Assembly: GCA_030523765.1 (NCBI GenBank)
Contig: JAUNHX010000007.1
Location: forward strand, 73,663 to 117,232
Origin: Bacteroidales bacterium
Lineage (GTDB): Bacteria; Bacteroidota; Bacteroidia; Bacteroidales; P3
DNA length: 43,570 bases
Direction of reading: 5' to 3'
In this document: piece after piece, positions 38,989 to 43,570 of the stretch
How positions within the stretch are numbered: the first letter of the stretch is position 1
Layout of the letters: each line of letters opens with the position of its first letter
The notes under the pieces: generated by a model
Databases searched by the model: none
What the model saw: the letters and a program-made list of their open reading frames with translations, nothing else
Told to the model about the DNA's origin: nothing
Translations under genes and position numbers: made by a program

Positions 38989-40170
38989 ATGGTAGATTAC
39001 AAAAAAATAGGACTTGTGAACACCCGCGAGATGTTCGCTAAGGCTGTTGATGGCGGTTATGCTATCCCCGCTTTCAACTTCAACAACATGGAGCAGATGC
39101 AGGCTATCATTCAGGCTGCTGTTGCTACCAATTCGCCCGTTATCCTTCAGGTTTCTAAAGGCGCCCGCGATTATGCAAACCAAACCCTTTTGCGCTATAT
39201 GGCCGAAGGTGCTGTGGAATACGCCAAGGAACTGGGATGCAAAAAGCCTGAGATTGTGCTCCATCTCGATCATGGCGACAGCTATGAAACTTGCAAGAGT
39301 TGCATCGATATGGGCTTCTCATCAGTGATGATTGATGGATCTTCCCTTCCTTATGATGAGAATGTGGCACTGACCAAGAAAGTGGTGAAGTATGCTCATA
39401 AGTATGACGTCACTGTTGAGGGCGAGCTAGGAGTATTGGCAGGTGTTGAAGACGAGGTGTCGGCAGAAGAGAGCCACTATACCAAGCCTGAAGAGGTGAT
39501 TGATTTCGTAACCAAGACGGGTGTCGATAGTTTAGCTATCTCTATCGGTACTAGTCATGGTGCCTATAAGTTCAAACCTGAACAGTGCACCAAAGATCCT
39601 AAGACGGGTCGCCTTGTTCCTCCTCCCTTGGCTTTCGATGTGCTGAAGGCTATCGAGAAGAAACTGCCTGGATTCCCCATCGTGCTGCACGGCTCGAGCT
39701 CGGTACCTCAAGATGAGGTTGACACCATCAACCAATATGGTGGTAAGATGGTTGCTGCTGTTGGTATTCCTGAGGAACAACTGCGTAAGGCCGCCAAGAG
39801 TGCTGTCTGCAAGATCAATATCGATAGCGACAGCCGTCTGGCTATGACCGCTGCCATCCGCAAGGCAATGGCTAACGATCCCGCTGCTTTCGATCCTCGC
39901 AAATACCTGAAACCGGCTCGCGAAAGCATGAAACAGCTATATATCCATAAGATCGAGAAGGTTCTTGGTTCGAAGGATAAGTTGCTCTCGGTTCAGAAAA
40001 CCAAGAAGGCTGCCGCTAAGAAAACAACGGCTAAGAAGACTACCGCTGCAAAACCCGCAGTGAAGAAAGCAGTTGCAAAACCTGCAGTGAAGAAAGTTGC
40101 TGTAAAGCCTGCAGTGAAGAAAGCTGCCACCAAGAAACCTATTGCTAAGAAAACCACCGCTAAGAAATAA
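38989..40170 (+). CDS. fba: Class II fructose-bisphosphate aldolase with histone-H1-like tail
   Basis: Zinc-dependent aldolase that splits fructose 1,6-bisphosphate in glycolysis and works in reverse in gluconeogenesis. The first 336 or so residues form the complete enzyme: IPAFNFNNMEQMQAI, catalytic D94 and zinc ligand H95 in LHLDHGDS, SIGTSHGAYKF and VLHGSSSVP with further zinc histidines, and NIDSD. Family members in Bacteroidota normally stop near VLGS. Here a further 57 residues (337-393) follow: 22 lysines, many Ala, Thr and Pro, and no acidic residue. The tail includes three 9-residue repeats KPAVKKAVA, KPAVKKVAV, KPAVKKAAT (355-381). It resembles eukaryotic H1 and bacterial H1-like tails. 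The reading frame is continuous. The gene is monocistronic by its own promoter and terminator. Confidence 0.95.
   Translation: MVDYKKIGLVNTREMFAKAVDGGYAIPAFNFNNMEQMQAIIQAAVATNSPVILQVSKGARDYANQTLLRYMAEGAVEYAKELGCKKPEIVLHLDHGDSYETCKSCIDMGFSSVMIDGSSLPYDENVALTKKVVKYAHKYDVTVEGELGVLAGVEDEVSAEESHYTKPEEVIDFVTKTGVDSLAISIGTSHGAYKFKPEQCTKDPKTGRLVPPPLAFDVLKAIEKKLPGFPIVLHGSSSVPQDEVDTINQYGGKMVAAVGIPEEQLRKAAKSAVCKINIDSDSRLAMTAAIRKAMANDPAAFDPRKYLKPARESMKQLYIHKIEKVLGSKDKLLSVQKTKKAAAKKTTAKKTTAAKPAVKKAVAKPAVKKVAVKPAVKKAATKKPIAKKTTAKK
40051..40131 (+). repeat. Three 27-bp tandem repeats in the aldolase tail
   Basis: Units at 40051-40077, 40078-40104 and 40105-40131 begin AAACCCGCAGTGAAGAAA, AAACCTGCAGTGAAGAAA and AAGCCTGCAGTGAAGAAA. 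They encode KPAVKK plus three variable residues. The unit length keeps frame, so the tail could grow or shrink by slippage. Confidence 0.9.
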
Positions 40171-40221
40171 TAACGCCATACGTTGGTTTATATAGCAAAT
40201 GAAAATATGTAAAGCATTCTC

Positions 40222-43365: not shown

Positions 43366-43529
43366 ATAAAGGGTAAATCCTATATTGTACATTTTTCACA
43401 AAAGAGGCGGCCCTTGGATGGTCCTTGTTCGGGCGACAGACAGTAAAAGCGCAAGCGGAGTCGTTTATAACAATACAAGGAATAGAATGGAATCTAGGCC
43501 TTTTCGAGGCAGTTGTCGCTGGGAAATAG

Positions 43530-43562
43530 GGCCAATGGGGCGAAAGAGGCCAAAGGGGCGAA
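43530..43562. repeat. G-rich direct repeat at window end
   Basis: GGCCAATGGGGCGAA (43530-43544) is followed by GGCCAAAGGGGCGAA (43548-43562), 14 of 15 identical with an 18-bp period. GGGCCT then begins as if another unit were starting. The array may continue beyond the window. The DNA at 43366-43529 shows no gene. Confidence 0.6.
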
Positions 43563-43570
43563 TTGGGCCT

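Follow-up and report, generated by a model that had tools for sequence, protein, structure and literature searches.

The class II fructose-bisphosphate aldolase (FBA) of a Bacteroidales bacterium runs in frame beyond its core into a lysine-rich, histone-H1-like tail, and a tail of the same character but different sequence persists in a sister species, past the point at which synonymous sites of the gene are nearly saturated. A similar basic arm is present on a second central-carbon enzyme in the same two species. I read these arms as polycations that may be selectively retained on both enzymes and tether them to nucleic acid, an interpretation to which I give somewhat less than an even chance. 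The kind of tail is already known from bacterial nucleoid and granule proteins; what is new is finding it, in two species, on enzymes of housekeeping metabolism, where the charge is kept as the sequence turns over. A literature search confined to an open library returned no title on a lysine-tailed FBA.

Core, junction and tail of the aldolase

The window, that is the whole stretch of DNA analysed here, comprises 43,570 bp (G000:C48:73663-117232) of a 2.40 Mb genome assembled in 56 contigs and 95.8% complete. FBA is encoded on the plus strand at 38989-40170 in a single uninterrupted frame of 393 residues, which ends in two consecutive stop codons, TAA TAA (40168-40173). Upstream, on the minus strand, are genes for a ClpB-type AAA protein and a TonB-C protein, and downstream for a GH3 glycosidase and a FAA hydrolase. 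A short 18-bp tandem array of the GGGCCAAAG type was seen at the end of the window (43525-43569).

Residues 1-332 (38989-39984) form the aldolase core and pass the NF005481 cut-off of 511 with a score of 623.8 bits, with residues 10-331 matching PF01116 at 333.8 bits (cut-off 25.5, E 1.2e-99). D94, H95, H190 and H234, which I take to be the catalytic aspartate and the zinc-binding histidines, are invariant across a 23-row alignment and also align with 2isv_A, the best sequence match that has a solved structure. The protein is the single match of the class II FBA family in its genome, where the sole PF01791 protein is a deoxyribose-phosphate aldolase (DeoC), and on a search of these two families the tailed enzyme may be the only FBA of this organism.

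Tailless relatives end at or before the junction (residues 333-336, LSVQ, 39985-39996), where the frame of the window goes on into the tail (residues 337-393, 39997-40167, net charge +22). The first-pass annotation had described an in-frame fusion of a full-length class II aldolase to a basic tail of 57 residues with 22 lysines, no acidic residue and three KPAVKK-type repeats, and the translation agrees on every count: residues 336-393 comprise 22 K, 16 A, 8 T, 6 V, 4 P, 1 Q and 1 I, with neither D nor E. Three 27-bp tandem units coding for the KPAVKK-type nonapeptides lie at 40045-40124 (Tandem Repeats Finder: period 27, 3.0 copies, 84% matches), and their score of 118 is the highest among the 16 rows obtained for the window.

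The H1-like composition that had been proposed for the tail was recovered in profile searches, though short of family membership: the tail alone matched the HC2 histone-H1-like model PF07382 with an E-value of 3e-4 and 21.4 bits, and the whole protein with 12.5 bits, under the Pfam cut-off of 40. Scores against NF038052 (14.0 bits) and NF038053 (14.3 bits) were likewise under the curated cut-offs. Taken together with the diverged tail of the same character in the sister species, the HC2 match puts the resemblance beyond chance. In an AlphaFold model built on the 23-row alignment, ten-residue blocks of the core had mean pLDDT values of 71 to 98 except for two, with weak stretches at 152-160 and 189-193. 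Values fell below 50 at residues 351-393, as expected for a disordered tail, and the tail is accordingly predicted to be disordered.

Distribution and divergence of the aldolase tail

A search of the genus gave a match in 111 of 120 genomes, some of the genes being cut by a contig end with the C-terminus unseen there, and only in G000 and the sister species G106 did the match reach residue 393 with no stop on the way. The first-pass annotation had called for a survey of class II aldolase C-termini, and these were read at 111 loci: the top 30 from the genus search (G000 included), the best 80 of 559 in named genome contigs, and the G106 locus (L111), which was added since its match reached the end of the tail. 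The two sets may share some genomes. Two of the 111 loci, the window's own and that of G106, are tailed, and the other 109, close relatives included, stop 4-10 residues past VLGS. On this count the tail is a lineage-specific gain, and an aldolase can do its work without one.

A homology search in which 8000 proteins were scored was consistent with this picture. Among the 120 proteins listed, 28 were longer than 340 aa, and of those listed only P0005, a metagenomic cluster of 38 members (389 aa), was a tailed FBA; the other long proteins owed their length to internal duplications or N-terminal extensions. The tails of P0005 and G106 differ by A/T and S/A exchanges only, with K and P kept. A region search with residues 305-393 was flooded by low-complexity words and missed P0005, which makes it uninformative on distribution; it picked up two unrelated enzymes that have K-rich tails.

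The G106 contig spans FBA from about residue 174 onward. Across 160 codons of the core, 155 residues are identical between the two species while third positions are only 57.5% identical (dN 0.018, dS 1.34), which is near synonymous saturation. Counted from residue 334, the tails measure 60 aa with a net charge of +22 in the window and 56 aa with +20 in G106, neither contains an acidic or aromatic residue, and the stretches on either side of the repeats (VQK first, TAKK last) are kept as well. The repeats themselves differ: autocorrelation is strongest at 5 and 9 residues in the window tail, and at 10 in that of G106. When evolution of the window tail was simulated under a neutral null of point mutation alone, without slippage or gene conversion, 0 of 5000 runs kept the frame, the lack of acidic residues and a net charge of at least 20 at 0.5, 1.0 or 1.34 substitutions per site, compared with 24 and 23 of 5000 (two base compositions) at 0.2; the result argues against neutrality only as far as point changes are concerned. 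I regard this as an apparent constraint: selection seems to hold on to charge, composition and length even as turnover of the repeats replaces the letters, which is what would be expected of a charge-dependent disordered arm. Tails kept with changed letters suggest that they matter to the cell, and the retention seen is that of one divergence, the tailed genomes being two at species level.

The foremost alternative is a neutral, self-regenerating expansion, in which loss of the stop codon followed by slippage or gene conversion of K/A codons would leave a harmless, self-renewing repeat without function. Both the unlike repeat periods of the two FBA tails and the tailless state of most relatives are as this explanation would have it, but the open frame, the absence of acidic residues and the near-equal net charge after a dS of ~1.3 are not, nor is the conservation of the tail ends that lie outside the repeats. 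I consider it unlikely, with a chance well short of that given to tethering.

A second tailed enzyme and basic C-termini elsewhere

Searching G106 with the FBA tail DNA led to a pyruvate-carboxylase-subunit-B / oxaloacetate-decarboxylase-alpha-like protein (PC-B-like hereafter; L184:4056-6104, G106:C26) with a basic tail of 85 residues, and its G000 orthologue (L182:10564-12645, G000:C54), encoded outside the window, has one of 96 residues. The best NCBIfam match of the latter is NF006761, at 225.9 bits below the cut-off of 402, and PF02436 is above its cut-off. AMKM is the usual biotin-attachment motif; the C-terminal biotinyl-like domain of the PC-B-like protein lacks it, as do relatives such as P0126.

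Of 20 genomes searched for the PC-B-like protein, 15 gave full-type matches, two weak ones and three none. Among the 15, only the matches of G000 and G106 extend into the tail; those of the remaining 13 end at query residue 451-478. In the eight relatives whose C-terminus was read, the last residues are GW[ILMVT]E or GWMK. Three of 120 listed PC-B-like proteins are tailed, namely P0123, which is nearly identical to the G000 protein, P0124, and the more distant P0135 (80% identity), whose different and weaker basic tail may have been gained independently. P0125, 88% identical over the matched part, is tailless. The cores of the G000 and G106 proteins have diverged to a dN of 0.045 and a dS of 1.59, and 40 of 81 aligned tail residues are identical.

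This second enzyme bears on neutral expansion from both sides. The tail of P0124 has one whole 16-residue unit more than that of G106, a step that slippage could take, and this difference, along with the change of period between the FBA tails, is in keeping with the repeat turnover and length change that the first-pass annotation had foreseen. Against such an expansion stands the fact that both genomes have the same pair of tailed enzymes, and that no other metabolic enzyme is tailed in the sample of G000 that was scanned. The sample comprised 836,573 bp (35%) and 612 complete ORFs of at least 100 aa, called by a longest-first rule under which some may be spurious; its first 20 stretches were chosen partly by pattern hits (the PC-B-like locus by design), and the second 20 were hand-picked regardless of hits. 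A net charge of at least +11 in the last 40 residues was found in five of the 612 ORFs: RNase R (+16), FBA (+15), the PC-B-like protein (+13), ribosomal protein L2 (+12, identified by its sequence) and a DUF4810 protein (+11). The last of these shows that a basic C-terminus need not mean nucleic-acid binding. In the relative G095, 1 of 223 complete ORFs reached +12, and its composition was not H1-like.

Protein and DNA searches of G000 and G106 yielded no convincing donor or second copy of the FBA tail, and no shared origin of the FBA and PC-B-like tails. Tail-only and family searches cannot prove absence here: when 20 genomes were searched with HC2, six gave a match at an E-value of 10 or less, none passed the cut-off and 4 of 14 controls matched; this search found the G000 FBA tail and missed both the PC-B-like tail and the G106 tails, and is thus insensitive, and another tail/family search missed the G106 PC-B-like tail. 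One DNA pattern search stayed at the level of its reversed control (134 vs 114 and 66 vs 66). Another exceeded its control roughly twofold (65 vs 34 in G000, 59 vs 28 in G106), and the places it returned, besides the known tails, were checked only inside the stretches that were read.

Possible roles of the arms and comparison with known systems

On the tethering interpretation, the disordered polycationic extension of ~57 residues (net +22) that the lineage gained at the C-terminus of FBA is one of which selection would keep the charge, composition and length as repeat turnover changes the letters. The arms would bind a cellular polyanion through electrostatic contacts that do not depend on sequence, nucleoid DNA or RNA being the likeliest partner. 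A fraction of the FBA and PC-B-like pool would then be held on it and the two enzymes perhaps brought together, with repeat number tuning the strength of binding. That nucleic acid is the partner is inferred from composition and from AlgP and PhaF of Pseudomonas: KPAA peptides of AlgP bind DNA in vitro and its KPAA tail is required to position granules, while PhaF is proposed to tether storage granules to the nucleoid through its own KPAA tail (PMC9239181). Both proteins have C-terminal disordered K/A/P repeats of H1-like composition whose number varies between isolates (PMC9239181). The FBA tail is of the same type (C-terminal disordered K/P/A repeats, no acidic residue), which is a likeness in kind and not common descent, low-complexity sequence giving no basis to judge homology. 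Unlike FBA, however, AlgP and PhaF are nucleoid- or granule-associated and not metabolic enzymes, and their tails are far longer, the AlgP repeat region spanning 154 residues (PMC9239181).

In an extended version, an H1-like arm gained by each of several central-carbon enzymes (at least FBA and the PC-B-like protein) would bring them to the nucleoid or an RNA condensate. The resulting metabolic assembly would depend on charge and not on specific protein contacts, would be tuned by repeat number, and would couple sugar and C4 flux to chromosome or RNA state; I find this version doubtful, though not negligible. Should tethering itself be true, stop loss and repeat growth would offer a simple evolutionary route to the spatial organisation of metabolism, and the tailless close relatives would be a natural control for whether position on a polyanion alters flux.

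The arm might instead bind a partner other than nucleic acid, be it anionic membrane lipid, another protein or polyphosphate, and I rate this as improbable. A simple polycation is able to bind any polyanion, and AlgP associates with polyphosphate granules (PMC9239181). Set against this, the tails are devoid of aromatic residues, and PPK1 (PF02503), the one polyphosphate kinase family searched for, gave no match in four genomes of the genus (G000, G106, G084, G034) in a search that matched 7 of 14 control genomes. Polyphosphate, one of the tethering partners that had been suggested from the sequence, is less likely because of this result.

The chance is smaller still that the arm, without any specific ligand, alters how soluble or stable an abundant enzyme is, or how it is assembled or degraded. 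Highly charged disordered tails are common solubility aids, and FBA is an abundant enzyme, but an exclusively basic charge and the choice of two particular enzymes would be left unexplained, and relatives manage without a tail. Finally, low-complexity repeats are error-prone in assemblies, but an assembly or frame artefact is hardly credible given the clean frame with its double stop and the diverged in-frame tails of similar length and charge in G106 and in the 38 members of P0005. The first-pass annotation would have given way had the tail been absent from all close relatives and the product of an assembly error, neither of which is so; its interpretation is partly supported overall.

Returning to the tether, other known systems resemble the tailed aldolase in part. 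Chlamydial Hc2 and bacterial H1-like proteins (PF07382, NF038052, NF038053) share its lysine/alanine-rich composition, whereas the FBA tail scores below all of their curated cut-offs and is fused to a full enzyme. The spore HU of Streptomyces likewise has a lysine-rich C-terminal arm on a conserved core in one lineage, but the HU core itself already binds DNA (PMC3784963). A class II FBA of Francisella is reported to be a transcription regulator that binds promoter DNA; the available text names no added tail there and reports the binding as promoter-specific (PMC5636795).

H1-like tails also occur on enzymes elsewhere as single cases: P0121 (PF03065) and P0122 (PF00218) have long KPAVKK-type basic tails behind their enzyme domains, and differ from FBA in being single sequences of other enzyme families with longer tails. 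An N-terminal H1-like KKTTTAKPAVKK arm precedes a domain in proteins of G058 (L112:1665-2363) and G098 (L114 / L141). Apart from the tail itself, neither G000 nor G106 gave a match to this N-terminally armed protein, and the G058 protein has no Pfam domain but weak HC2/extensin matches. In G071, an open frame of 283 residues on the minus strand of L115 combines an acidic middle with an H1-like lysine-rich C-terminus.
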